From: Dirofilaria immitis
Taxonomy: Eukaryota > Nematoda > Chromadorea > Rhabditida > Onchocercidae
NCBI GenBank assembly: GCA_024305405.1
Contig: JAKNDB010000086.1
Coordinates: 1,921,001 to 1,985,000, forward strand
DNA: 64,000 nt
Direction: 5' to 3'
The position numbers and the translations under genes are program-made. The notes under the pieces are model-generated. The model saw only the letters and a list, made by a program, of their open reading frames with translations, was not told the DNA's origin and did no database searches. The stretch's first letter is position 1; every line of letters begins with the position of its first letter. Below are positions 1-18,616 of this stretch, in pieces.

Positions 1-191
1 GGATCGTACTGTTCGGGAGTCATGGTAGTCAGGCATGAGTGGCAGTTTAAACGATTTGGCTTTCCATCGTTTACATCCATAACATTTATTCAACACTCTC
101 TTGACTTCGGCTCTTCCTTTAGGTATCCAATATCTTCTTAATTCAGAAATTGTATGAGGAATGCCTCCATGATGAATTTTTTCATGGTATG
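1..191 (-). CDS. Pao integrase, H2C2 zinc-binding domain (partial)
   Basis: The minus strand encodes a stretch with the integrase zinc-binding signature: HEKIHHGGIPHT, then RRYWIPKGRAEVKRVL, then C-x2-C in KCYGCKRW, followed by KSFKLPLMP. The two histidines and two cysteines of the H2C2 finger are all present, and WIPKGR is typical of Pao/BEL integrases. The catalytic core would lie beyond the window start. The link to the upstream RNase H (191-430) has stops, so the polyprotein is broken here. Confidence 0.85.
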
Positions 192-430
192 TTTAAATAA
201 TAATTTCTGTTATTCAATTATGTCTCGGGAGATATGTTAAATATGAGATACAATTACCACTACTTGGAAATTGCAATCGTCCTCTAAACTTCCATAATCC
301 CATTACATAATCCAAGTACGCTTCTTTATTTCCTCTACTGATAGTCCTTCCGATTGAGCTTGTCTGAGTAACAATTCAACGGCAAATTCATATTCATATG
401 GAGTGATTTGAATTCCCTGTGATATATTGC

Positions 431-889
431 TTAATAACCAGGAAATTTATCTTTGGATATTAGTTTAAGAAATTTCAAAGCTCTTACGGTAGTTCGGACC
501 ATTCGTGACCAATTGCTGAACCGATTTGCATCAAAAAAGCTGATTGATGTTTTGGTAATAGCTTCTTGAATCGCTATAACTACTACTTGTTCTCCTTCTT
601 CATCTATGGTTTCTTCGTTATCGCTTTCTTGTTTGATATCATATTCCCAATGGGGCCAATTTGATTCTTCCTCCTTCAGCCATTCGGGCCCATTCCACCA
701 AAGTGTGAGATTTGCCAGATCGCTTGGTGATATTCCTTTCGTAGCTATGTTTGCTGGATTACACTCACTTGGAATATATCGATACGCAAATTTGGCCTTT
801 CGTATCTCCTCGACTCGATTTTGGATAAAACTTGATAAGATCGAGAATGGTTTTGTATCCAGTGCAATGCGCACCGCGAATCTGACCAT
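431..889 (-). CDS. Pao pol segment between RNase H and integrase
   Basis: An open frame of about 150 residues lies between the RNase H-like part and the integrase finger. It contains RKAKFAYRYIPSECNPANIAT, resembling the C-terminal end of Pao RNase H regions (residues of the type RHVPTxxNPADxxSRG), then a linker with LTLWWNGPEWL as seen before integrase in this superfamily. It continues the pol of the element on the same strand but in a broken frame relative to its neighbours. It is a relic, not an independent gene. Confidence 0.7.
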   Translation of the reverse strand: MVRFAVRIALDTKPFSILSSFIQNRVEEIRKAKFAYRYIPSECNPANIATKGISPSDLANLTLWWNGPEWLKEEESNWPHWEYDIKQESDNEETIDEEGEQVVVIAIQEAITKTSISFFDANRFSNWSRMVRTTVRALKFLKLISKDKFPGY

Positions 890-918
890 AAAATCACCTG
901 TACATTTTCAAATTCCAA

Positions 919-2213
919 TTATTTGATGACAAATTGAGCTGCTCTTACCCCAATTAAGATTGCTAATACTTCGAGTTCCGGTATCGTCATCGTTTTGATT
1001 GGGGCTACTCTTGATTTGGCAAAAATCAAGGACGTTGTCGGACTTTGTTTCACATAAATTGCCGCTGCATATGCTTTGGTGGACGCGTCAGTGAACACGT
1101 GGATACTTGTATGTTCGAATATGTTGATAGCAGCGCGTGGTATCTCCTTTACGTATGTTGGCCATAGAGTTATAAAGGAATTCCATGTTTGGCTTTCATG
1201 CTCGTTTTGTGGTTGATCCCATGGTAACTTCTTTTTCCAGAGATCTTGAAGAAATAGTTTGAAGGATATCATTGTTGGAACTAAGAAATCTAATGGATCG
1301 AAATGAGAAGCTATAAACTGTAGAATTGTTCTTTTAGTTAGTTTCTTATCAGTCCATGGTTTTAATATTATCTCTATGACATCCTTGTGTGGATTCCAAC
1401 TAATGCCAAGAATTTTTTTGACTCGGCTTACCTCTGCAAGATCGTAACTGGGTAATTGAGCATTGAAACTTTTATCGTTCGAGAAGAATTCTCTTATATT
1501 CATCGAGGCCTCACTGAAAATTGATTTCACTTCTTCATATTTTTTCAGAGCTTCCTCTGTCCCTTCAGTCGGTATTATGATATTATCAACATATAGGTTT
1601 TTTCTGATTTCATAGGCGGTTTTGCTGTGGTGGTTTTCTAAATAGTAATTGAGCGTGGCCAACAACAAAAAGGGGACGATATTATTCCGAAATGGTACTC
1701 TTTGAAATCTGTAACATATCAGGTTATCCTTTGTAGGTGGTTTTTGATACCATTTACCCATAGAAATCTTGTGCAATTCCTTTCCGTTGGAAACAACTCC
1801 AATTGTAAAAGGCGTTTTCAATATCGGCAATAAACACATTTTTCATCGCGCGAAACCGAAGTAAAAACACCAGCTAAGTCGGGGAGTGTGATCGGTCCTC
1901 TGTACAGGACATCGTTCAAACTTTTTATTCCTTTGAGGTGTGCTGAGGCATCATAGACGATTCTCAGTTTCGTTGTAGATTTGTTTGGAGTTACGACTTC
2001 ATGATGTGGTAGATAACGGATAATGCCGTCTTGATGTTTCGTTTTTACTTCTTCGATGACGTTAGATTGTAACTGTTCATTGATTGTTTCACTGTATTTT
2101 CGTAACAGATCTTTGTCATTTTGAAGTCGTCTGATCAATGACTGTAACCTACCTAGACACAAACCAAAATTGTCGTTTAGTTTGAGGTTTGTTTCTTTCA
2201 ATGGCCATGACAC
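919..2213 (-). CDS. Pao/BEL reverse transcriptase and RNase H region
   Basis: Two overlapping open segments (1818-2213 and 919-1839) carry the RT. The first has [14 protein letters not shown] and [10 protein letters not shown], the Pao fingers/palm start. The second has [30 protein letters not shown] at the polymerase active site, [13 protein letters not shown], and an RNase H start at [16 protein letters not shown] with its first aspartate. The active-site motif reads YVDN where many reverse transcriptases have YVDD; I recall this variant in other nematode Pao elements but cannot confirm it here. The overlap in different frames at 1818-1839 is a frameshift, so the polyprotein is interrupted. 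Confidence 0.85.
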
Positions 2214-2468
2214 CTGATACCGTCCATTGATTTTCGTAATGCTTAAATTGGTTTAAGGCTTACGAAAGGAAACGAAATGCGAACGAAAAAAAAAAGGCAT
2301 TGGTTTAAGGCTCATTATCTTCGTCATCAGGTTTGTCTTGTATTCCAATAACTTCTAATTTCCAGAAGCGGTCTATGTCTGCGGTAATACTATTGACGGA
2401 TACAGTTGTTGATGTTCTTTGTGGCAATTCGGATGTTGGCGTAATACCTTTACAGTTTGATATAGTCG

Positions 2469-3000
2469 TCACTCCAGTGAATTTAGGTGGTCTTGTTGTG
2501 TGTCTCCACTGCCAGCTAATATCGGACCAACCTTAGTATTTATCAAGGAAAATCCTGATCTTATGACTTGGCATTGCTTAAATGGGATGAATTGAGAGAA
2601 GTAGTCAGCTCCGATGAGTATATCGGGACGTTCTATGCATCTTAAACTTCTGCCTAATTGAATTTGATTCGTGATACTTGGTACGTCCCGTTGGTCTAAT
2701 GGAATTATCAGCAATGAGTTGGTTAAATATTCTACCACATTCACTTTGAGGAATATGGTCTGGGAGTCAGTGGTTTTTACTCCAATAACCGTTGTATAGT
2801 ACGAAGATGAAGTTGGGTATTTGTTGCTGAATGAGGCAATCCTTATGATTCCATTTCACCAACCTCTAATTTCAATTTTTGCGCCAATTTTTTGAGACAA
2901 ACGATGTTTGCGCACCAGTATCAAAGAGTACTATAGCTCCGCTTTGAATCTCCTGATTAACTGGATTGATAACATTGACCTTTCTGCATAGAAGCAAAAC
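2469..3000 (-). CDS. Pao aspartic protease domain
   Basis: On the minus strand, an Asp-Thr-Gly-Ala active-site motif (VLFDTGAQTSFVSKN) is encoded around 2890-2940, and RPDILIGADYF at about 2600-2640. Both belong to the retropepsin-like DUF1758 protease of Pao/BEL elements, between zinc knuckle and RT. The two parts are in different frames, consistent with decay. Confidence 0.75.
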
Positions 3001-3049
3001 TTTTTCTCTTTGATCCATTTGGTTTTTGTTTGTAATATTGACATTCACT

Positions 3050-3300
3050 TGGCTTCTTCTTTATTTGGTTCGTCGTGCCCTCGATACTTCTTTTCGTATA
3101 ATGCTGTGTTGTGAGGGCCTTTGCAGTAAAAACAGGAACTTTTTCTGCTTTTACAATCCGTCGTCTTGTGACTATTATCAAAAGAGTTCAAACAGATCTT
3201 TAATTCCTTCAGACGTTCCGTTCTTTGTTTTACTGTTGAGTAAAGCTGACACTCATTATCCCAATGATCTTTATTACAAAATGTGCAGGGTCTTTTTGTT
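3050..3300 (-). CDS. Pao gag zinc knuckles
   Basis: A complete CCHC finger is read on the minus strand at about 3245-3295 (C-x2-C-x4-H-x4-C within PCTFCNKDHWDNECQLYS). A second, imperfect one follows near 3110-3150 (CFYCKGPHNTALY, last cysteine replaced). Tandem knuckles at the end of gag, just before the protease, are usual in Pao/BEL elements. They bind the element's RNA. Confidence 0.7.
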
Positions 3301-3679
3301 TTAGTCCCTTTTGCCTTTGATTAGGGAATTAACACCGTTAATGCTGAGGTTTCATTAGGGATAAATCGCGAAAATGGTTTTGACTTACTCTTTACTGATT
3401 CTTGATTTCTTATCGTATTCAGGGATTGGATCCTCATTACTTCTTCACTTCTGAGCACGAGTTTCCCGAGAAGTTGTCTCAGCTTATTTACTGACCATGA
3501 TTCCTGTTACTTTTGTTGATAAATCTTTTTCAGAATCCATGCTGGCAGTCTGCTTTCAATTATTATTTCAATACTCGACTTCTCCAAGTTCTCGCCCATG
3601 GCTTCCAGCTGTCGCAGTATTCTTTCGATACTTTCAACTGTCACTCTCCATTCCCGATCATTCTTTTGGTCGAGCACAG

Positions 3680-4334
3680 TTCATTATAGAGTGACCTCTT
3701 GATTGTATATGACTGACCAAATTTTTCGATAAGAACCGTTCTGATAACATTGTAATTTTCTGGGGTTATATCATATCCCCTTACAGCTTGTAAGGCATTA
3801 CCTTTCAAAAAGCAATGAAATAATTTAATTTTTGGATATCTGGGATGTTTTGAAGATGTATTGCAGCATCAAACTCCAAAATCCTCTCCATAACTTTGGG
3901 TTACCGTCAAATATTGGTAACGGTAACTGGGGCAAATTCACTGTTGTGTGATTTGCTGATTGTATCGTTTCGTTTTGTTGAGTCAGTACTCCTTTTTAGT
4001 GCTTTTTCTAAGCGTTGGAGTATTAACTCCGAATCTTTTTCATACATTTTAAGAGTAATTATTACATCTTTACTATCACTAATTAATCTTAAAATACCTG
4101 TTTCATCGTCCATCATTTGTGCGTATTTTTCTTCTTCCTCTCGCCTTTTTGCGGGGAGGAAATTTGTGGAATATTCTGCTTCCACTCTTTATTGGTCGTT
4201 TCGAGAGATTCCAGATATGATTCGAGGCGCATCATTTTCTCCTCGATGATTCGTTTTCTTGTTTCATGTTGCTCCTGGATTTCTTCTACAGTCATCATTG
4301 GATCCATTTTCTCCAAATCCATTTTTTGATTCAT
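3680..4334 (-). CDS. Pao gag, coiled coil and DUF1759-type core
   Basis: Minus-strand frames at 4113-4334 and 3907-4185 encode a Glu/Lys-rich coiled coil. It is followed by LPQLPLPIFDGNPKLW at about 3895-3930, the hallmark start of the Pao gag core (LPKLELPxFxG), and by stop-interrupted gag sequence down to about 3680. The two coiled-coil frames overlap by 73 bases in different registers, so at least one frameshift is present. Confidence 0.75.
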
Positions 4335-4400
4335 TTCAGAAGGCTTAACGCCTTTTCTTTCACAGGTTGAACAGCTTTAACTATTGCAGCTGACATTCCC

Positions 4401-4423
4401 GGCTCGTGGCACCAATTTTATTT
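4401..4423 (-). other. Primer-binding site region of Pao element
   Basis: Directly inside the LTR, the minus strand reads TTGGTGCCACGAGCCGGG. A TGGTGCC start followed by a short GC-rich stretch is the form of many LTR-element tRNA primer-binding sites. Its place, a few bases after the ACA end of the LTR and before gag, fits that role. The tRNA itself was not identified. Confidence 0.6.
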
Positions 4424-4843
4424 TGTTGATAACTTTTTGATTAGACTGAACTGAGTTTGAATTTGTAATTTGTTGGAAAAGGGTTCATTGTGGACGAATT
4501 CAGGATTTGTAAGGTTTTAGCACAAGAAGAATGTAATAACAATTTACTTTAAAGAAAACGGGAACGTTGATATTGGTAAAACTATAGACAACTGGGTAAA
4601 CACCAAAAAAATAAAAAAAATGATCCGGTACAAAGTCATGGTCCTTTGTACAAAAGATTTTGAAAGGAGGAGATTTACAAGGATAGACATATTTAGATAC
4701 GAGACAATTTTTTAATGGAATGAGAACATCTGCCGGAAACGGCGCCATGAGAATGGTTTACATTGTACAAGCAATGATTCATAGAGAAATAAAGATTTGG
4801 AAATAATTATAATTAAAAATTAGTTTCGAGAAAATTCCCGACA
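4424..4843 (-). repeat. 5' LTR of the Pao element (about 420 bp)
   Basis: On the minus strand the segment begins TGTCGGGAATTTTCTCG at 4843 and ends GTTATCAACA at 4424. The TGT...ACA ends fit the usual LTR termini and are followed by the putative primer-binding site. Satellite A starts at the very next base (4844), so this edge is the insertion boundary or a later breakpoint. The partner LTR is not in the window, so the ends rest on motif and position alone. Confidence 0.65.
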
Positions 4844-5290
4844 GTATATAAGAAAATATAACAAATTTTTATTTTATAGTATACAAGAAAATATTGCACA
4901 AGTAATATTTTTATTTTCTGGTATATAAGAAAATATGTAATATTTTTATTCACTGGTACATAAGAAATTATGCAATATTTTTATTTTATAGTATATAAGA
5001 AAATATTGCATATGTAAGATTTTTATTTTCTAGTGTGTAAGAAAATATGTAATGTTTTCATTTTCTAGTATGTAACAAAATATGCAACATTTTTATTTTC
5101 TAGTATAAAAGAAAATATATAATATTTTCATTTTCTGGTATATAAGAAAATATGCAATAATTTTATTTTATAGTATATAAGAAAACAAGTTAAATTTTTA
5201 TCGTATAGTATATATGAAAATATAAAAATTTTTATTTTATAGTATACAAGAAAATATGTTAAATTTTTATTTTATAGTAATTAAAAAGAC
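4844..5290 (+). repeat. Satellite A array, forward orientation, copy 1
   Basis: Tandem monomers of about 35-38 bp follow the scheme ATTTTTATTTTATAGTATAT then AAGAAAATATGTAAT. Variants TTCTAGTAT, TTCTGGTAT and TTATAGTAT alternate. Copies differ by several bases each. No open frame of interest runs through it. Confidence 0.9.
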
Positions 5291-5550
5291 GAGTACATTT
5301 TCATATATATAAAAAAATTTTCTCTCTCTCTATATATATATATATATGTATATTTTTCCTTGTATATATACTTTTAAATATCGTTATTTTTATAGATACG
5401 ATCAAACATTTTCTCTACTTACATTATATATTCGAATATGATTATTTTTATATATTTTTTGTTTTTTTGGGAAAAAAATTTCCGCTTGAAATTATAAATA
5501 ATATTTATTATGTATATCATTAAATCTTTATTATATAACATGTAAATCTA
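5291..5550 (+). repeat. Linker J, forward copy 1
   Basis: This non-tandem AT-rich segment joins satellite A to satellite B. It contains a (CT)n(TA)n stretch at 5315-5348 and the landmark ACATTATATATTCGAATATG. The same segment recurs inverted at 6421-6720 and forward at 10991-11290. Here it runs straight into satellite B after AACATGTAAATC, lacking segment U that follows it in the other two copies. Confidence 0.8.
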
Positions 5551-5902
5551 TCTATGATTAGACGGGTCATAATCCATATCTGTGATAAAAGGAACACAGA
5601 CGAGTCATAATCCATATCATTGATAAGAGAAATATATATGACAAATTCATCGTATATATCTATGATTAGACGGCTCATAATCCATACCTATGGTTAGACA
5701 AATATATACGAATCATAATCCATATCTATGATTAGAAAAACACAGACGAGTCATAATCCGTATCTATGATAAAGAAACACAGACGAGTCATAATCCGTAT
5801 CTATGATAAAGAAACACAGACGAGTCATAATCCGTATCTATGATAAAAGAAACACAGACGAGTCATAATCCGTATCTATGATAAGAGGAATATATACGAC
5901 AT
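5551..5902 (+). repeat. Satellite B array, forward orientation, copy 1
   Basis: Monomers of about 37-38 bp run as AAAGAAACACAGACGAGTCA then TAATCCGTATCTATGAT. They are nearly identical at 5735-5880 and more diverged before that. Variants carry ATTAGACGGGTCATAATCC. The array turns into its own inverse at about 5900. Confidence 0.9.
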
Positions 5903-6225
5903 AGGTATGGATTATGGGCCGTCTAATCATAGACATATACGATGATTTTGTCGTATATATTCCTTTTATAATATATACGGATTATGACTCGTCTGTGTTT
6001 ATTTTATCATAGATACGGATTATAACTCGTCTGTGTTTCTCTTATAATATATACGGATTATGACTCGTCTAATCATAGATATATACGACGAATTAGTCGT
6101 ATATATTTCTCTTATCATAGATATGGATTATGATTCGTATGTGTATCAATAATCATAGATATGGATTATGACCCGTCTAATCATAGACATATACGATGAT
6201 TTTGTCGTATATTTTGTCCATTCAT
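5903..6225 (-). repeat. Satellite B array, inverted, copy 2
   Basis: The same monomer as in the preceding array is read on the other strand (ATACGGATTATGACTCGTCTG and relatives). The change of direction happens within a few bases after AGAGGAATATATACGACATA. This block is the reverse complement of about 11500-11760, base for base over long stretches. Confidence 0.9.
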
Positions 6226-6420
6226 CGATATGCATGACGGTTCTATCTAATCAGAGATATTATTTTTTCGATATTAGAGACCATTTTTGATCTGCTTTTA
6301 CACATTGCTCAGTTGGAGTGTGAGAGATGAGCGCACTCTGGATTATATATTATAAATGCATCTCTCTCTATCAACGTTGTAGTATTTTTTAAAAAATTTT
6401 TTTCTTTTTTTTATTTTATA
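6226..6420 (-). repeat. Segment U, inverted copy
   Basis: This is a non-tandem stretch of about 195 bp containing GGAGTGTGAGAGATGAGCGC and CATCGATATGCATGACGG. Its reverse complement lies at 11291-11500 and is practically identical. It is the only part of the 8.7 kb block with near-normal GC content. No reading frame or RNA-gene signature was recognised. Confidence 0.8.
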
Positions 6421-6720
6421 AAAATGATTTTAATCAAAAATATTTGATTTACATGTTACATACAAAAATTTAATTATATATATAATAAATATTATTTATA
6501 TTTTAATGAAAAATTTTTTTCCCAAATAAATTTCTTTTTTCCCAAAAAAAAAAATATACCAAAATAATCATATTCGAATATATAATGTAAGTAGAGAAAA
6601 TATTTGATAGTATCTATAAAAATAACAATATTTAAAGGTATATATATAAGGAAAATTATATATATATAGAGAGAAAATTTTTTAAATTTCTTTTAATATA
6701 TATGAAAATGTCCTCATATT
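6421..6720 (-). repeat. Linker J, inverted copy
   Basis: Reverse complement of the linker at 10991-11290. Shared landmarks are CATATTCGAATATATAATG and a run of T/A around TTTTTTTCCCAAATAAATTTC. Pairing positions sum to about 17715 (6331 with 11385, 6601 with 11114), which shows that the two copies are arms of one large palindrome with almost no indels in this stretch. Confidence 0.85.
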
Positions 6721-8985
6721 TTTAAATACTATAAAATAAGAATTTTTACATTTTCATATACACTATAAGATAAAAATTTACTTATTTTCTTATATACTAT
6801 AAAATAAAAATAAATAAAAGTATCACATATTTTCTTATATACTAAAAAATTAAAATATTACATACGCAATATTTTCTTATACACTATAAAATAAAAATTT
6901 TTTCCTATATACTACAAAACAAGAATATAATATATTCTATCACATTCTATAAAATAAAACTATTAAATATTTTCTTACATACCATAATATAAAAATATTT
7001 CGTATTTTCTTATATACTGGAAAATAAAAATTTTTAATATTTTCTTATATACTATGAGATATAAATCTTACTTATTTTCTTAACTTAATGACTTAATGAT
7101 ATATATAATAAATATTGTTTATATTTTCAAACGAAAATTTTACCTAATGATATGTATAATAAATGTTATTTTAAATATTATTTATAAATATTGTTTATAC
7201 ATTATTTATATGATATATATAACAAATATTGTTTATGAAAATATTGCATATTTTCTTATATACTTTAAAATTAAAATACTACATATTTTCCTATATACTA
7301 AAGAATTAAAATATTATATACGGAATATTTTCTTCTATACTATAAAATAAAAATTTTTTTCTTATACGCTATAAAATAAAAATTTAACGTATTTTTTATA
7401 TACTATATAATAAAAATATTACATATCTTCTTTTATACCAGAAAATAAATATATTACATATTTTCTTGCATACTAGACAATAAAATTATAGTATATGATG
7501 TATTTTCTTATATACGATAAAATAAAAATATCACATATTTTATTAAATACATTAAAATAAAAATATTACATATTTTCTTATATACTAAAAATCAAAATAT
7601 TACATATGCAATATTTTCTCATATACTATAAAATAAAAATATCACATACTTTCTTCTATACCAAAAAAAAAAATATTGAATATTTTCTTATATACTATAA
7701 AATAAAAATATTTCATATTCTCTTACATACTATAAAATAAAAATATTTCATATTTTCTTACATACTAAAAAATTAAAATATTACATACGCAATATTTTCT
7801 TCTATACCATAAAATAAAAATTTAAATTATTTTCTTATGTACTACAAAACAGAAATATTATATATTCTCTTATATACTATAAAATAAAAATATTTCATAT
7901 TTTCTTATTTACTGGAAAATAAAAATTTTTAATATTTTCTTATATACTATGAGATATAACTCTTATTTTCTTAACTTAATGACTTAATGATATATGTAAT
8001 AAATATTGTTTATATTTTCAAACGAAAATTTTACCTAATGATATGTATAATAAATGTTATTTTAAATATTATATATAAATATTATTTATATATTATTTAT
8101 ATGATATATATAACAAATATTATTTATAGAAATATTTCATATTTTCTTATACACTGGAAAATTAAAATATTACACATGCAACATTTTCTAATATACTGTA
8201 AAATAATTGAAATTATTTTCTTATATGCTACAAAACAAAAATATTATGTATTCTCTTACATACTATAAAATAAAAATATTTCAGATTTTCTTATTTACTG
8301 GAATTTTTTATATTTTTTTTATATTTTTAAAATTTTTTATATTTTGTTATATACTATAAGATAAAAGTCTAACTTATTCTCTTATATACTATAAAAAATT
8401 ATATTTCATACTTTCTTATATACTGGAAAATAAAAATATTGCATAATTTCTTGTATGCTTGAAAATAAAAATATTATATATTTTCTTATATACTGGAAAA
8501 TAAAAATATCACATATTTTCTTATATACTGGAAAATTATAATACTACATATGAAATATTATTTATATATTTTTATATGATATATATAACAAATATTATTT
8601 ATAGAAATATTACATATTTTCTTATCTACCGGAAAATAAAAATTTTTATATTTTCTTATATACTATGAGATAAAAGTCTAACTTATTCTCTCATATACTA
8701 TAAAATAAAGACATTTCATAGTTTCTTATGTACTGGAAAATAAAAATATTACATATGCAATACTTTCTTATATGCTATAAAATAAAAATTTAAATTAATT
8801 TCTTGTATACAAGAAACAAAAATATCACATATTTTATTAATTACTAGAAAATTATAGCATTACACATGCAATATTTTTATATACTATAAAATAAAAATAT
8901 CACATATTTTCTTATATATTCTAAAATTAAAATATTACATATTATCTTATATATTGGAAAATTAAGATATTAAAAAAAATTAAAA
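6721..8985 (-). repeat. Satellite A array, inverted, with an embedded longer repeat
   Basis: About 2.2 kb of satellite A monomers on the minus strand (TTTTCTTATATACTATAAAA and variants). Inside it a longer unit of roughly 250 bp, starting AACTTAATGACTTAATGATA, appears at 7082 and again at 7975. Its inverse recurs near 9440-9700 and 10370-10600. Thus the inner palindrome also holds a higher-order duplication. Short reading frames here (for example 7096-7350 and 7987-8268) are low-complexity Ile/Tyr runs created by the repeat. Confidence 0.88.
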
Positions 8986-10990
8986 TTATAATATTTTATA
9001 GTACATAAGAAAATATGTGATATTTTTATTTTTTTATAGTATATAAGAAAATATGTGATATTTTATTTTCCAGTATATAACAAAATATGAAATATTTTTA
9101 TTTTACAATATATAAGAATATATGAAATATTTTTATTTTATAGTATATAAGAAAATATGAAATATTTTCATTTTATAGTGTATAAGAAAATATTTAATAT
9201 TTTTTTCTGGTATAGAAGAAAATATGTGATATTTTTATTTTATCGTATATAAGAAAATACATCATATACTATATTTTTATTGTCTAGTATGTAAGAAAAT
9301 ATGTAATATATTTATTTTCTGGTATAAAAGAAGATATGTAATATTTTTATTATATAGTATATAAAAATATGTTATATAGTATATAATATTGCGTATATAA
9401 TATTTTTTATTATATAGTATATAATATATAAAAAATATGTTATATAGTATATAATATTGCGTATATAATATTTTAATTCTTTAGTATATAGGAAAATATG
9501 TAGTATTTTAATTTTAAAGTATATAAGAAAATATGCAATATTTTCATAAACAATATTTGTTATATATATCATATAAATAATATATAAACAATATTTATAA
9601 ATAATATTTAAAATAACATTTATTATACATATCATTAAGTAAAATTTTCGTTTGAAAATACAAACAATATTTATTATATATATCATTAAGTCATTAAGTT
9701 AAGAAAATAAGTAAGATTTATATCTCATAGAATATAAGAAAATATATAATATTTTTCTTTTATAGTATATAAGAAAATATGTGATATTTTTATTTTCCAG
9801 TATATAAGAAAATATGCAATATTTCTATAAATAATATTTGTTATATATGTCATATAAAAATATATAAATAATATTGCATATGTAATATTATAATTTTCCA
9901 GTATATAAGAAAATATGTGATATTTTTATTTTCCAGTATATAAGAAAATATATAATATTTTCATTTTCAAGCATATAAGAAAATATGAAATATTTTTATT
10001 TTATAGTATATAAAATATTTTTGTTCTGTAATATATAGGAAAAAAATTTTAATTTTTATTTTATAGTATATAAGAAAGTTTTGCATATATTAAATTTCCA
10101 GTATATAAGAAAATATGTGATATTTTTATTTTACAGTATATAAGAAAATATATAATATTTTCATTTTCAAGCATATAAGAAAATATGAAATATTTTTATT
10201 TTATAGTATATAAGAAAATATTTAATATTTTTTTTCTGGTATAGAAGAAAATGATATTTTTATTTTATAGTATATAAGAAAATATTGCATATGTAATATT
10301 TTAATTTTTTAGTATATAGGAATATATGTAATATTTTAATTTTATTGTATATAAGAAAATGTTGCATATGTAATATTTTAATTTTCCTGTATATAAGAAA
10401 ATATGCAATATTTCTATAAATAATATTTGTTATATATATATCATATAAATAATATATAAATAATATTCTTAAATAATATTTATTATACATATCACTAAGC
10501 AAAATTTTCGTTTGATATTTATTATACATATCACTAAGTAAAATTTTCGTTTGAAAATATAAACAATATTTATTATATATATCATTAAGTCATTAAGTTA
10601 AGAAAATAAGTAAGATTTATATCTCATAGTATATAAGAAAATATTAAAAATTTTTATTTTCCAGTATATAAGAAAATACGAAACATTTTTATATTATGGT
10701 ACGTAAGAAAATATTTAATAGTTTTATTTTATAGAATGTGATAGAATATATTATATTCTTGTTTTGTAGTATATAGGAAAAAACTTTTATTTAATAGTGT
10801 ATAAGAAAATATTGCGTATGTAATATTTTAATTTTTAGTATATAAGAAAATATGTGATATTTTTATTTATTTTTATTTTATAGTATATAAGAAGATATCA
10901 AAACTTTTATTTTATAGTATATAAGAAAATAAGTAAATTTTTATCTTATAGTGTGTATGAAAATGTAAAAAATTTTTATTTTATAGTATT
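8986..10990 (+). repeat. Satellite A array, forward, copy 2
   Basis: Satellite A flips to forward orientation at about 8985 (after GATATTAAAAAAAATTAAAA) and runs 2.0 kb. Together with 6721-8985 it forms the core of the large palindrome. Monomers alternate TTTATTTTATAGTATATAAG and TTTATTTTCCAGTATATAAG forms, as their inverted partners do. Confidence 0.88.
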
Positions 10991-11290
10991 TAAAAATATG
11001 AGGACATTTTCATATATATTAAAAGAAATTTAAAAAATTTTCTCTCTATATATATATAATTTTCCTTATATATATACCTTTAAATATTGTTATTTTTATA
11101 GATACTATCAAATATTTTCTCTACTTACATTATATATTCGAATATGATTATTTTGGTATATTTTTTTTTTTTTGGGAAAAAAGAAATTTATTTGGGAAAA
11201 AAATTTTTCATTAAAATATAAATAATATTTATTATATATATAATTAAATTTTTGTATGTAACATGTAAATCAAATATTTTTGATTAAAAT
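10991..11290 (+). repeat. Linker J, forward copy 2
   Basis: Right-arm partner of 6421-6720, with the same TATATTCGAATATGATTATT landmark and AACATGTAAATCAAATATTT end. Unlike copy 1 (5291-5550), it is followed by segment U. Confidence 0.85.
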
Positions 11291-11500
11291 CATTTTTATA
11301 AAATAAAAAAAAGAAAAAAATTTTTAAAAAATACTACAACGTTGATAGAGAGAGATGCATTTATAATATATAATCCAGAGTGCGCTCATCTCTCACACTC
11401 CAACTGAGCAATGTGTAAAAGCAGATCAAAAATGGTCTCTAATATCGAAAAAATAATATCTCTGATTAGATAGAACCGTCATGCATATCGATGAATGGAC
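11291..11500 (+). repeat. Segment U, forward copy
   Basis: Reverse complement of 6226-6420, with TGCGCTCATCTCTCACACTC and CCGTCATGCATATCGATGAA. Its near-perfect preservation in the two arms contrasts with the drift seen between neighbouring satellite monomers. Confidence 0.8.
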
Positions 11501-12408
11501 AAAATATACGACAAAATCATCGTATATGTCTATGATTAGACGGGTCATAATCCATATCTATGATTATTGATACACATACGAATCATAATCCATATCTATG
11601 ATAAGAGAAATATATACGACTAATTCGTCGTAAATATATATATGATTAGACGAGTCATAATCCGTATATATTATAAGAGAAACACAGACGAGTTATAATC
11701 CGTATCTATGATAAAATAAACACAGACGAGTCATAATCCGTATATATTATAAGAGAGATACATACGAATCATAATCCATATCTATGAATAGAGAAATATA
11801 TATGACAAAATCATCGTATATATGATAAGAGAAATATAAACGGATCATAATCCATATCTATGATTATTGATACACATACGAGTCATAATCCGTATCTATG
11901 ATAAAAGAAACACAGACGAGTCATAATCCGTATATATTATAGGAGAAACACAGACGAGTCATAATCCATATCAATGATAAGAGAAATATATACGGATCAT
12001 AATCCATATCAATGATTAGACAAATATATACGACAAATTCGTCGTATATATATATATGATTAGACGAGTCATAATCCGTATATATTATAAGAGAAACACA
12101 TACGGGTCATGATCCGTATCTAGGATAAGAAAAACACCGACGAGTCATAATCAGTATCTACGATAAAAGAAACACAGACGATTCATAATCCGTATCTATG
12201 ATAAGAGGAATATATACGACAAAATCATCGTATATGTCCATGATTAGACGGGTCATAATCCAAATCCATATCAATGATAAGAGAAATATATACGGATCAT
12301 AATCCATATCTATGATTATTGATACACATACGAATCATAATCCATATCTATGATAAGAAAAACACAGACGAGTCATAATCCGTATCTATGATAAGAGGAA
12401 TATATACG
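11501..12408 (+). repeat. Satellite B array, forward, copy 3
   Basis: About 24 degenerate monomers of roughly 38 bp in forward orientation. Every few monomers an insert such as TATACGACAAATTCGTCGTA occurs, itself a near-perfect dyad. The first 250 bp mirror 5980-6225. The array turns at about 12408 with the sequence AGAGGAATATATACGACATA, the same as the turn at 5890-5903. Confidence 0.9.
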
Positions 12409-13535
12409 ACATAGATATGGATTATGACCCGTCTAATCATACACATATACGATGATTTTGTCGTATTTATTTTTCTAATCATAGATATGGATTATGATTC
12501 GTATATATTTGTCTAACCATAGGTATGGATTATGACTCGTCTGTGTTTCTCTTATAATATATACGGATTATGACTCGTCTAATCATATATATATATATAC
12601 GACGAACTTGTCGTATATATTTGTCTGATCATAGATATGGATTATGATTCGTATATATTTCTCTTATAATATGTACGGATTATAACTCGTCTGTGTTTCT
12701 CTTATAATATATACGGATTATGACTCGTCTAATCATAGACATATACGATGATTTTGTCGTATATATTTCTCTTATCTTAGATACGGATTATGATTCGTAT
12801 ATATTTGTCTAATCACAGATATGTGTTATGACCCGTCTAATCATAGACATATACGATGATTTTGTCGTATATATTTGTCTAATCATTGATATGGATTATG
12901 ATCCGTATATATTTCTCTTATCATTGATATGGATTATGACCCGTCTAATCATGGATATATACGATGATTTTGTCGTATATATTCCTCTTGTCATAGATAC
13001 GGATTATGACTCGTCTAATCATATATATATAGACGACGATTTTGTCGTATATATTTGTCTAATCATTGATATGGATTATGACCCGTCTGTGTTTCTCTTA
13101 TAATATATACGGATCATGACCCGTCTGTGTTTCTCTTATAACATACACGGATTATGACTCACCTTTGTTTCTCTTGTCATTGATACGGATTATGACTCGT
13201 CTGTGTTTCTCTTATCATAGATACGGATTATGACTCGTCTGTGTTTTCTTATCATAGATATGGATTATGATTCGTATGTGTATCAATAATCATAGACATG
13301 GATTATGACCCGTCTAATCATAGATATATCCGATGATTTTGTCGTATATATTTGTCTAATCATAGATACGGATTATAACTCGTCTGTGTTTCTCTTATAA
13401 TAGATACGGATTATGACTCGTCTATTCATAGATATATACGATGATTTTGTCGTATATATTTCTTTTATCATAGATACGGATTATGACTCGTCTGTGTTTA
13501 TCGTATAACAGATACAGATTATATGACTCGTCTGT
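12409..13535 (-). repeat. Satellite B array, inverted, copy 4
   Basis: About 1.1 kb of satellite B read on the minus strand. It stops at about 13535 where the leader of an LTR element begins. A frame at 12828-13103 is open for 91 codons only because the monomer translates into a repeating IYDDFVVYI-like peptide; it is not considered a gene. Confidence 0.9.
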
Positions 13536-13539
13536 CGCG

Positions 13540-13585
13540 TATTTATTGGGTGTGAGCTGACGTCGAGGGGACCAAATGTCACCAG
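13540..13585 (-). other. Leader and primer-binding site after LTR 2
   Basis: Just inside the LTR end, the minus strand reads CTGGTGACATTTGGTCCCCT and then a GC-rich leader. TGGTGAC as the start of a primer-binding site is common in LTR elements. It differs from the TGGTGCC of the element at 1-4843, so this is another family. After about 45 bases the leader gives way to satellite B; no gag follows. Confidence 0.55.
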
Positions 13586-14018
13586 TGTTGGGGATTGAGT
13601 AGGGTGTAGTGGAGCTGTATTGAGAACACACCGTGAAGCCGAAACGTTTATTACTGATTGTACTTAAGTGATAACAATAATATTGATGATGATCACTCGT
13701 GGTTTATATCTTCCCAGAAGTGGGAGTGGTTAATTCTAGCACCGGAAACATACCGGATATGGAGGAAACATTACAGTAAGATTAAAAGGGGAGATTAGCG
13801 TGGGAAAATAAGCGTTTAAACAAAAAGATGTGGATTGGGTAGATAACAACAAAACGTGTGAAAAACAGTTTTAAAGAATGTAGATATGACTGGGATGATT
13901 CATAGTTTCATGAGCATTAATTTACAGTGAGTAATCTATTTGCTTATTTGTTTACATTAAGAAATTTATTTAATTATGTAATTGTGTGTTGGAGTTTCGC
14001 GAATCAGCGTTCGCGACA
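13586..14018 (-). repeat. LTR of a second retroelement (about 433 bp)
   Basis: Minus-strand ends are TGTCGCGAACGCTGATTCGC (at 14018) and CAATCCCCAACA (at 13586), that is TGT...ACA. An env-like frame ends 14 bases inside the LTR on one side and a primer-binding site lies on the other. This is the order env-LTR-PBS, expected at the junction of tandem copies or of a solo LTR with flanking element sequence. The first bases contain an inverted repeat (TCGCGAA...TTCGCGA). The body is not visibly similar to the LTR at 4424-4843. Confidence 0.6.
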
Positions 14019-14696
14019 CTCCCAAGGGGAGACGAAAAAAGAATTAGTATAGCATTCTAATTGGGGTGTCTTCAGGGTATATGCAAAAGTATTGAGTCTA
14101 ATAACCGTTGCTTGATTTTCCTTATCAGAAACGTGGGTAAGCTTAGGTCCCGTAGGAAGGATAATGATATTTTTGTGGTCAGAATTTCGTCTTCGGGAAG
14201 AACAAAATAAGGATTGCAAGAACACAAGCTTGAATTTAAGACCAATTATTATAAGTAATATTACGGCAATACTGATGCAAATAGTTATTAACTTCCAATT
14301 TGTTGCCACGCTTTCAAGTTCTTCTTGAATAAATTGAATCACTTGGTCAACTTCTTGTCCAACCTGATTCGTTAGTTCTTCTCCCTGTTCGGCGACTTCT
14401 TCCCAGATAGAATCGTCCTTGTATTGTGACGACACCAAACCATCTGTGTCGTGATGGTGGCTTAGAAGCTCCAACTCACCATTAATTCTCTCGATCTCAA
14501 ATTTATTTAGTAATTCTCCTGTGAATTCGATGGTTCGGAATGGCTTTCTACCTGTTTTACAGGGTGCTTCTACGCCGACTACACCGATTGGTGTGTGGTT
14601 TGTATCGTATGATTTCATCACATATAGAAAGGCTTTCTGAAAGCCTTTCAGAAAAATCGTTTTTACCAAAAAAATAATGTGGAAATATGCAGACAT
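14004..14696 (-). CDS. Env-like C-terminal fragment of LTR retroelement
   Basis: The open frame of 230 codons encodes, in order, a region starting near residue 30 with the cysteine-containing VEAPCKTGRKPF, a Glu/Gln-rich amphipathic stretch (about residues 90-135), one hydrophobic span (LITICISIAVILLIIIGL, about residues 137-154), and a basic, cysteine-containing tail. A heptad-like ectodomain followed by a single membrane anchor at the 3' end of an LTR element is the form of an envelope protein. The frame ends just inside the LTR. The N-terminal 30 residues, which cross an inverted repeat (14632-14655), are doubtful. The rest of the env and pol are absent upstream, so it is a truncated relic. 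The family assignment is inferred from position and topology only. Confidence 0.5.
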   Translation of the reverse strand: MSAYFHIIFLVKTIFLKGFQKAFLYVMKSYDTNHTPIGVVGVEAPCKTGRKPFRTIEFTGELLNKFEIERINGELELLSHHHDTDGLVSSQYKDDSIWEEVAEQGEELTNQVGQEVDQVIQFIQEELESVATNWKLITICISIAVILLIIIGLKFKLVFLQSLFCSSRRRNSDHKNIIILPTGPKLTHVSDKENQATVIRLNTFAYTLKTPQLECYTNSFFVSPWECRER

Positions 14697-15316: not shown

Positions 15317-16802
15317 ATAATAAATGAATAAAAATATGAAAATTTTAATTCTGAATCCAAATGTAAGCTTATTTTGCCGAGTGATATTCGGTCATTATTA
15401 TTTTGTACAGATTATTTTTTAGGCAAGAGTTGCTCTAAAGAGATTGTTTGAAGAGTCGATCTAAACAGTTTTTAAATTTTCATTTCCAGCTAGAAGTCTT
15501 ACAGCTTACGATAAACTAATAGAGACAAGCTAACGGGATAACGAACAAATAAGCTTGTAAAATTATTAAATTGTTCAAAACGGATTTTTGCTTGGACTGA
15601 TATCTCGAAATGCGAATTATGTGGACAAAATATAGAAAAATCTGAAGGTCATAAGATTTGAACAAATTCTCAATTCTCTTCCGATGATCCTTTTTTTCAT
15701 TGATTACTAGTTTTAAAATTTTCAGAGAAATTTGCTAGGATCTTCATGCTAATCATAAGTACTTTTAATGCATTAAATATTTGCTGAGATATCCAGAAGT
15801 ATTTTATCGATAACACAAAATAATCAATTTAAAAATATTAATCTTTTCTTTTTAGCTGAATTTACGATGTTGCAGATCATGTTTGGTATGAAATATGGAT
15901 AAAAGATTTGAATAGATGGGTACACTGTAAACCATACGAAAATATAATTTATTTATTTCACATAATAAAGGAGTGTACTCCTTTATTATGTAAAAGGTTC
16001 TTTTTTTCCTTTTATTAAAATATGCACTGTATAGATATTTAGATCTTTTCTTTTTAATTTATCCTTTCATTTCTGATTTCGCATTAAAAATTGTATTGAT
16101 GAATAATAAAAATTATCATTTTTGTATCGGAAACTTTCGTTTGTACGAAGTCTTAGGTATGAAAACCAGTCAGTATATGCTTCGATTTCTAGAGATAGAG
16201 ACAGAATTTGAATTATGTAATCGAGCTTGGTTTGGACCACATACGAAATGTTAGATGGAGATATGCTTTCAATCACTTTGCAGCTCTTGGTAGAGGGAAT
16301 TCCTCCGGGAAATAGTTCTGAGAAATTTTATGCGGGTGTAATTTCATTCGGAAAGTATGCATTTATAGAAGCAAAACACGATTTTCTTCAATAAAATGAA
16401 CTAATAAAATTGAAGAATATTGATTGCTGACAAAAATATTCATTGATTTTTCATCAACATTTAATACAATTTTTTTTTGTATGCAAAATGCCTGCAAAAG
16501 CTTCAGAAACTGAACATCCGTTATGCAAGTTTTATGTGTGAAGGGAGAAAAGAATGAAATGGAAAAAAGGCACATGAAAGAATTGATTGGATTCATTAGT
16601 GCCACAATGTAGATACGTGATGGAAGGTAGAAAAGCAAGGAAGAATAACTGGATCGGAAGAATCGTAAAAACAACAGGGAGAAACTGGAAGTGGAGAATG
16701 AGCTGAACGGATGCTTGTACCAATCGAAAAGGAAATTTATGACAAAATATTCAGGTTGTTCTGTTTAGTTAGTAAAAAATAAGTACTAAAAGTAAGTACT
16801 AA
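15317..16802. other. Intergenic, one weak possible exon
   Basis: Mostly featureless AT-rich DNA. A plus-strand frame at about 16219-16393, open without a good start, reads in part LVEGIPPGNSSEKFYAGVIS and looks somewhat protein-like. I could not assign it to a family and found no clear splice partners. Minus-strand frames over the same place appear to be shadows. Confidence 0.3.
15960..15991. repeat. Perfect 15-bp inverted repeat, 2-base spacer
   Basis: ACATAATAAAGGAGT is followed by GT and then its exact reverse complement. It sits in non-coding DNA, could extrude as a cruciform, and could be a terminator-like hairpin in RNA. No element ends were recognised around it. Confidence 0.8.
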
Positions 16803-17081
16803 AATAACCGCTTTTAGCCTTTCTTCAAACTCTTCTCTGAACTTTATTCCAGCAATTAATGCGCCAAGATCTAAGGCTAAAACCTTCGTATCACGTAAAC
16901 CAAGCGGCACATCATTTATAACAATTCTATTTGCCAGTCCTTCCACTATTGCAGTTTTTCCAACACCAGGCTCACCTATTAGCACTGGATTATTCTTTGT
17001 CCGCCTGAGTGATACCTGTATAGTCCTTCTAATCTCATCATCACGACCAATCACAGGATCAATGATTGGCCTAATTGTCAT
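16803..17081 (-). pseudogene. clpB: ClpB fragment, probable Wolbachia-derived nuclear insertion
   Basis: Ninety-three codons match the first AAA domain of bacterial ClpB/Hsp104 almost residue for residue: [16 protein letters not shown], then [20 protein letters not shown] with the Walker A motif GEPGVGKT, then [19 protein letters not shown] and [11 protein letters not shown]. The match begins and ends abruptly. The domain's Walker B, the second AAA domain and the N domain are missing. Changes at normally fixed positions are seen (QVSLRRT for QVLSRRT, KFREEF for KFRGEF). No splice signals frame it. In a filarial nuclear context the likely source is the Wolbachia endosymbiont. ClpB is a cytoplasmic disaggregase, but this piece cannot work. 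Confidence 0.8.
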
Positions 17082-18616
17082 GACTGTTCCATCAACTGTT
17101 GCTATTGGTAATAGTTTGGAATAATTGCATGTTATAAAGGTATTTTTTTATATCAGCTACCACTTAAATAGTCTATTTTTTGCGCTAGCTTAAATTATTC
17201 AGGCAATTTTGCAGAAGAAATCAAGATTTATTTAAATCGTGGTAAAAAAGAGAGAAGAAAGAAAAGGAAAAAAAGGTTTATCAAAAAACGGAAAGATGTA
17301 AAACGACTGATAAATTATTGCAAATTATACAAGATGGATTATTATTAGATTTGTTTATTAAAAATATTGCTGGAAATTTTCAGAAAACAATTTTTGAAAA
17401 TATTTCAGTTTTTCTCTAAACTAAAATATTTTATGATTGTGCAAAAAGTATGATTGTGCGAAGGATCAATACAGAGGAAGTATAATGAAAGATTTGGCAA
17501 GTTTAGTCAATAAACAAAAAGTGTATGTCGAGTATTCGATCAAACGAACAGTGTCGCTTATATATGTTGTCAAAAGATCAAAGCAAATACTGAACTGTGC
17601 TGATCACTTGATTTTGTTGGTCATCATGTCAAAAATATTAAGTTTTGGTGGACGGTAGCAAAAAAATGATTAAGCCTTGTAAATTTAATTCATATTCGTA
17701 AATCTTTGAAAATACTGAAAATCTCTGAAAAGTATTGAGCAGAATTTAATTCGATTTTGAAGTACAAACCCAGATGTTGCGGTACTTTTTAGCAGTTAAG
17801 AATAGTGAAAGACGATATTGATTTGAAATGTGTACAAGCCTTTTGAGAAAGTTAGTTCAGATTATTCCTGGAATAAGCTTCGGTGTTTCCATCACTTATA
17901 CTAATTGTTAACTTTGGCTGACATAAAATAAATCGTTAACACGAAGAAACTGTAATAAAAACTATCAAATTCCCAGAAACATTTGATGGGTAATCCTTGT
18001 CAATGAAGTGAACTTGCAAGCCAGGTGGTTCTTGTATTAGATTATTTTGTCAACCGCAAAATTTCACAGTTATTGCTTACTGACAAGAATGATAATAATA
18101 GAAAATTGTTTAGACATAGATTCCCGGTTAACTATTCTAGGAACCATTGCAGGATATGATGAAAGCAGTCATTAGTTGCGGTGGCATATGCACAGTGATA
18201 TTTTCAACCGGTAAATTAGAATTGAAAATGATTGAACGTGACGACAGTTGTCTCCAACAAATCTTCATTCTGAAGATTATATCAATTTCCGTGTCGAGAT
18301 TTCTTTTTAAACGATATTTGATTTTGCTTTTCCCTTCCAAAAATAAGTCTTCCATCCTAGCTAACATTTTCGATGTTCAGCTTTCTGCAACTTTGAATTT
18401 TTCCTTGTTCATATGTAACAGTTTTGCTAATTTGCACTTTCTTCATTCTTATTAACCAATAAAACACGCAAACAACTGACAACAATAACAACAAAAATAA
18501 TGAAATGATTTCTTGAATAAACTATTGGAAGCCGTTCCAAAAATTTCTTTTCTCATCAGATCGACAGTTGAATATATTCTCAAAGAATGTAGATCAATTT
18601 CAAAAGAGCACTTTAT
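17082..18616. other. Intergenic, no gene recognised
   Basis: Short frames at 17437-17658 (+) and around 18137-18455 (both strands) show no family resemblance, no splice support and no codon bias. Nothing else was seen. Confidence 0.4.

Follow-up and report, generated by a model that had tools for sequence, protein, structure and literature searches.

A mirror-image mosaic of two short satellites and two linkers in Dirofilaria immitis, possibly shaped by copying at damaged chromosome ends

Identification and layout of the satellite block

Within a stretch of 64,000 nucleotides of Dirofilaria immitis DNA (the window; C16:1,921,001-1,985,000) lies an 8.7-kb block in which two short tandem repeats (A and B) and two linkers (J and U) follow one another in alternating mirror-image order. 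This block combines inverted copies, direct duplication and array turnover into a mosaic and is not one palindrome. Pieces of the same family directly adjoin telomere repeats on another contig. The reading we favour, at a probability of just under one half (about 0.47), is that A-J-U-B is a telomere-associated composite satellite, whose mirror layout arose from fold-back or template-switch copying at damaged ends followed by conversion between the arms. The assembly searched comprised 86.7 Mb in 65 contigs. An exon in the window matched the selenocysteine elongation factor of D. immitis (100% identity over 90% of the query) and those of Brugia pahangi and Onchocerca volvulus (80-81%), and so points to D. 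immitis or a very near relation.

The anatomy of the block was established by BLAST labelling, tandem-repeat finding and reading of the sequence. From left to right the order is A>J>B> <B<U<J<A A>J>U>B> <B, and the strand changes cleanly at 5.90, 8.98 and 12.41 kb. The leftmost A array (4844-5279, plus strand), built of a ~35-bp AT-rich monomer, leads into a diverged J copy (5280-5545, plus) that shares ~85% identity with both other J copies of the block and is not followed by U. A B array of ~38-bp monomers (5546-5886, plus) then meets a B array on the opposite strand (5909-6212, minus) at the first B><B join (5888-5916, plus). Next come U (6213-6476, minus) and J (6477-6714, minus), each identical except for one indel to its counterpart in the right arm, and an A array with spacer islands (6715-8972, minus). 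The A><A centre of the middle inverted repeat (8973-8984, no strand) was placed by reading and BLAST labels. To its right lie an A array (8985-11000, plus), J (11001-11240, plus), U (11241-11510, plus) and a B array (11511-12409, plus), which runs into the second B><B join (12398-12426, plus), oriented as the first, and a final B array (12410-13533, minus), the right end of which is cut by a long terminal repeat (LTR). A arrays were delimited by tandem repeats, BLAST labels and word and motif counts, plus-strand B arrays by tandem repeats, BLAST labels and word counts, minus-strand B arrays by BLAST labels and word counts, the right-arm linkers by BLAST labels, and the joins by a pattern search allowing at most 3 mismatches.

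Strand-specific word counts agreed with these labels. A diagnostic A word occurred 6/0, 0/14 and 19/1 times (forward/reverse) in the three A blocks, and a diagnostic B word 8/0, 0/4, 16/0 and 0/18 times in the four B blocks; both were absent from the rest of the window. This equated to wrong-strand words in 1/40 cases for A and 0/46 for B. The order, boundaries and three centres described in the first-pass annotation of this DNA were thus confirmed by labels and word counts alike.

The GC content of A and J was 13-17%, that of U 26% and that of B 30-32%. No reading frame of at least 110 codons was present in the block, where the longest stop-free run was 109 codons, and the window gave no hits to Rfam (at gathering scores) or in a tRNA scan. 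The block probably has no role as a gene. It would serve instead as end DNA that is rich in repeats and prone to recombination, and would offer LTR elements a place to insert.

Arm identity and the direction of the joins

The best inverted self-match of the block scored 6053 bits, compared with at most 61.7 bits in 50 dinucleotide-preserving shuffles, and the longest exact inverted repeat was 312 nt (from 6084 and 11321). Similarity beyond chance, as first claimed, was therefore upheld. The same annotation had gone further, describing one inverted duplication with arms of ~3 kb whose paired positions add up to a near-constant sum of ~17715. This held for part of the arms only.

We aligned the arms outward from the 8.98-kb centre and scored the identity of aligned columns per 100-column bin. 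The first 200 columns showed no pairing, and of the next 17 bins 16 were 61-90% alike and one 96%. Further out, the bins running from 7,153 to 5,992 on the left and from 10,528 to 11,726 on the right were 98-100% alike except for indels, one of which was 34-35 bp long. This near-identical tract (5992-7153, minus, and 10528-11726, plus) measures ~1.2 kb per arm and starts 1.5-1.8 kb from the fold. The bins bordering it were 90% alike on the inward side and 74% on the outward side, giving a sharp outward end. Best-match sums were 17,714-17,718 in most 70-bp windows of the left arm between ~5,970 and 6,810, and 17,681 at 6,950-7,090.

Inward of the tract the mirror register was lost. A segments 93-95% alike paired in non-mirrored order (7393-7565 with 9195-9367, 7962-8177 with 9496-9711 and 8416-8643 with 9786-10013), with sums ranging from about 16,760 to 18,429 and including 17,673. 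When the inner left arm (8980-7160) was divided into 27 windows of 70 bp, the better match was the right arm in 13/27 and another fetched locus in 14/27. The J and U copies nearest the centre were mutual nearest relatives (100% of aligned columns), whilst the best other copy reached 87-90%. Collinearity of the arms in mirror order thus extended over ~1.2 kb and not throughout.

The outer parts of the block are related in a different way. The B><B join occurred at two places in the assembly (at most 3 mismatches), both in the window (5,888 and 12,398) and both in the forward orientation (2 forward, 0 reverse). The two joins lie 6,510 bp from each other as direct repeats, and around them (-80 to +79) seven of eight 20-bp bins were 85-100% alike, the remaining bin being 65%. 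As the joins face the same way, direct duplication links the outer parts of the block. Had an inverted duplication taken in the joins, they would face opposite ways, so the locus combines a direct duplication of a unit containing the join with mirror identity flanking the A><A centre. An origin of the whole of 5.9-12.4 kb as one inverted duplication was rejected on these grounds; the inverted duplication first described is real but local.

The bounded tract is most simply explained by conversion between the arms, although a short, recent inverted duplication would fit too. Large palindromes, such as those of Y chromosomes, are kept alike by arm-to-arm gene conversion. The block resembles these in having arms that are identical over a bounded tract within diverged surroundings. 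It differs in that its arms consist of satellites and linkers, hold no long reading frames and are kept alike over only ~1.2 kb.

The arm profile also bears on whether the inverted joins were made by the assembly, through a missed-adapter read chimera or a repeat misjoin. We regard this as very improbable. In this assembly contig ends often fall close to these repeats, and the layout is known from the assembly alone, which would suit an artefact. However, the arms of a chimera would match almost perfectly right from the fold, whereas the columns nearest the fold were unpaired, nearly all inner bins were clearly diverged and the near-identical tract began well away from the fold and carried real indels. 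Furthermore, J and U in both orientations recur on other contigs.

Occurrence of the repeats near contig ends and a telomere

Searches with A, B, J and U had been proposed in the first-pass annotation and, run on this assembly, they recovered relatives. The assembly held 16 matches to J, 33 to U, at least 76 to A and at least 144 to B, with the weak A matches possibly reflecting chance similarity of AT-rich DNA. The listed J and U matches formed 21 clusters, and 13 of the 21 lay within 25 kb of a contig end, compared with an upper-bound expectation of 3.7% (binomial P ~4e-14; for the C51 cluster the distance to the contig start was used, and a contig end need not be a chromosome end). Because assembled contigs break at repeats, part of this enrichment is to be expected, and the figure alone proves little. 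A comparison set of 21 stretches was fetched from 16 contigs; 16 of the 21 carried an A label.

Direct adjacency to terminal telomere repeats was found at one end. Bases 1-1321 of C57 were labelled as telomere repeat (TTAGGC/GCCTAA) and were followed directly by <J <A, a Pao LTR, <A <B and unlabelled DNA; the two A pieces held the A motif 4 and 5 times. Among the matches listed (105 pattern matches in total) this was the only telomere array at a contig start. A second candidate, on C59, was rejected, as its TTAGGC-like tracts (3.7-5.0 kb) belong to a ~300-bp unit (C59:3600-5060) and are not at the contig end. Since J, A and B pieces of the family adjoin the telomere on C57, an origin by fold-back or breakage-fusion copying, as first suggested, is plausible. 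The hairpin-ended replicon suggested alongside it found no support, given the lack of a frame of 110 codons or more and the position of the block inside a 2,185,006-bp contig.

Flanking blocks were common to C34, C10, C3, C9 and C12 at 97.7-99.8%, and to C34 and C61 at 97.9-99.5%. Such sharing of flanks between contigs resembles subtelomeric blocks.

The start of one contig (C34:1-6620) and the end of another (C61:4377454-4383111) carried nearly the same block (97.9-99.5%) on opposite strands. These may be two chromosome ends or two haplotypes; both of these nearly identical stretches enter the orientation counts that follow.

Orientation, order and termini of the related loci

J or U occurred in both orientations in 6 of the 16 fetched stretches that held J or U (C9, C16, C25, C34 twice and C61). 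BLAST labels placed A in both orientations in 7/16 stretches, a figure that we rejected after a stricter count of the A motif. By that count 12 stretches held the motif and 3 of them, namely the window and the near-identical C34 1-6620 and C61 end, had it in both orientations; the remaining A labels were mostly AT-rich or TA-repeat DNA. A-labelled stretches beside U at C34:10371, C3:1565558, C10:47219 and C12:9807-9964 were TA repeats with no A motif, situated in the blocks that these contigs share at 97.7-99.8%.

Several results weigh against a telomere-associated satellite built by fold-back copying, besides the tendency of contigs to break at repeats. These include the low number of loci with strictly defined A in both orientations, the A arrays of C6, which all lie in one orientation, and the 8/21 J/U clusters situated away from contig ends. 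C57 was the single telomere-capped contig seen; U is absent next to its telomere, and its order outward is B-A-J-telomere, unlike the window unit. The window copy itself is internal, ~253 kb from the nearer contig end, and telomere-like repeats in the window were not beyond chance (2 matches, 2.0 expected).

Some of these results would follow from plain reshuffling, in which dispersed satellites were rearranged by ordinary unequal exchange, inversion and LTR-mediated events and neither ends nor fold-back had a special role. We consider this somewhat unlikely. The scrambled, out-of-register inner A segments, the LTRs found at both block ends and commonly in the clusters, the single orientation of A on C6 and the clusters remote from contig ends are all in its favour, and the stricter A-motif count strengthens it whilst weakening the telomere-associated reading. 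Against it stand the J, A and B pieces directly beside a telomere, J or U in both orientations in more than a third of the relevant stretches, and the A-J-U-B order, which is kept at several loci.

The repeats could alternatively be a foldback-type DNA transposon family, in which long inverted ends of tandem subrepeats (A-J-U) surround a B core and the satellites grew from the ends. The arms of the window block are indeed long, inverted and made up in part of tandem repeats, B is flanked by U in both orientations on C25 (11-15 kb) and C34 (9-16 kb), and the order on C61 is A>J>U>B> followed by <A<J<A. A precedent is provided by Tetris of Drosophila virilis, which PMC4079207 describes as a nonautonomous transposon with terminal inverted repeats. 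Like the block, Tetris and its TIR-220 satellite have tandem repeats inside inverted arms, from which satellite arrays were seeded and grew. In contrast to these terminal inverted repeats, 20 A-labelled outer edges of the block family revealed no constant A terminus with independent flanks, although several coincided with LTR edges or TA repeats. The C61, C34, C6 and C25 loci also share flank and so look like copies of one larger block, no clear target-site duplication was visible by eye at the two loci inspected (C19 and C25), and the block again offers no long frame. A transposon of this type therefore appears unlikely, more so than reshuffling.

Possible origin of the mirror layout

Under the favoured reading, of a telomere-associated satellite altered at damaged ends, an uncapped end would have primed synthesis on nearby repeat DNA and so generated inverted copies. 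A unit containing the B><B join would then have been duplicated in direct orientation, and the 1.2-kb tract would have been homogenised across the A><A centre by conversion. The window copy would have become internal later.

Such a route is available in nematodes, as near-end DNA is copied onto uncapped ends in telomerase mutants of Caenorhabditis elegans. According to a review (PMC9071541), this commonly happens to subtelomeric segments. The review describes, from Lowden et al. 2011, simple and complex subtelomeric duplications from near-end DNA at damaged ends of a holocentric nematode, which would resemble the origin proposed for the present block. The C. elegans events, unlike the block, arose in telomerase mutants and were partly primed at interstitial telomere tracts, whereas the heartworm block is a natural satellite mosaic in a window that holds no such tracts beyond chance.

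A filarial tandem repeat with a tendency towards chromosome ends has also been reported, namely the HhaI repeat of Brugia malayi (statements in PMC7181701). By description, HhaI is a single monomer of ~322 bp, whereas the block combines satellites of ~35 and ~38 bp with two linkers, in both orientations. Among the titles and abstract openings listed from the open-licence full-text literature, none describes the layout, in line with the first-pass annotation, which knew of no described filarial repeat arranged like this. The D. asiatica genome paper (PMC12546972) uses none of the terms telomer, satellite and inverted in its main text, and the parts seen of the L. sigmodontis (PMC10817185) and O. 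volvulus (PMC5310847) papers make no mention of such a repeat.

A more far-reaching version, which we hold to be improbable, is that the block is a fossil chromosome end. A fold-back ladder of inverted A-J-U-B copies would have formed on an eroded holocentric end that was later joined elsewhere, its scar still being homogenised across the A><A centre, and filarial chromosome ends would generally be built of such inverted copies. The strict A-motif count weakens this version as well. Irrespective of this version, mosaic and partly inverted natural subtelomeres in nematodes would be a non-laboratory counterpart of end repair by copying of nearby DNA in the C. elegans telomerase mutants. Such repeats would also explain the frequent contig ends near them and would mark internal scars of former ends.

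Long terminal repeats at the block ends

The block is bounded on both sides by LTR sequences. On the left, the LTR of a Pao/BEL retrotransposon (4403-4843, minus) ends in the A array, as seen from its junction with A; its family has 47 LTR matches across the genome. The body of the element fills window positions 1-4402 on the minus strand, continues leftward and contains Peptidase_A17 and DUF1758 matches. On the right, an LTR-like end of ~480 bp (13534-14017, minus) from a second repeat family with at least 40 genome matches meets the B array, the remainder of the element lying to the right.

Where the left Pao LTR family met A arrays, 8/8 outer LTR edges broke at one place of the 35-bp A monomer. 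The 4/4 opposite edges started with the identical 5 bases, and at C57 the solo LTR was flanked by a clean 5-bp target-site duplication. The edges came from the window (4843/4844), C57:1735-2085, C6, C9, C15, C34 and C61; the 12 edges are not all independent events, as C34, C61 and the window look related and two C6 flanks are alike. Insertion of this family into A only was rejected, as 8/8 further LTR copies drawn from the 47 lay in other DNA, these having been chosen for lying outside A hits and not as a random sample.

A second copy of the right-hand LTR with an adjoining <B piece was found ~16 kb to the left, beyond the Pao element (C16:1918424-1919385). Its left flank carried no B label and no matching target duplication by eye. 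Beside the right-hand LTR itself ends a 230-residue frame (14004-14696, minus) with no Pfam match at E 0.001. By eye it contains a likely membrane segment and looks like the envelope-type end of an LTR element.

Other observations in the window

Further to the right, a fragment of ~100 residues (16737-17147, minus) matched the bacterial chaperone ClpB (NCBIfam E 1.5e-47, below the full-length cut-off; best PDB chain E 3e-40). It is possibly a nuclear copy of a Wolbachia gene.

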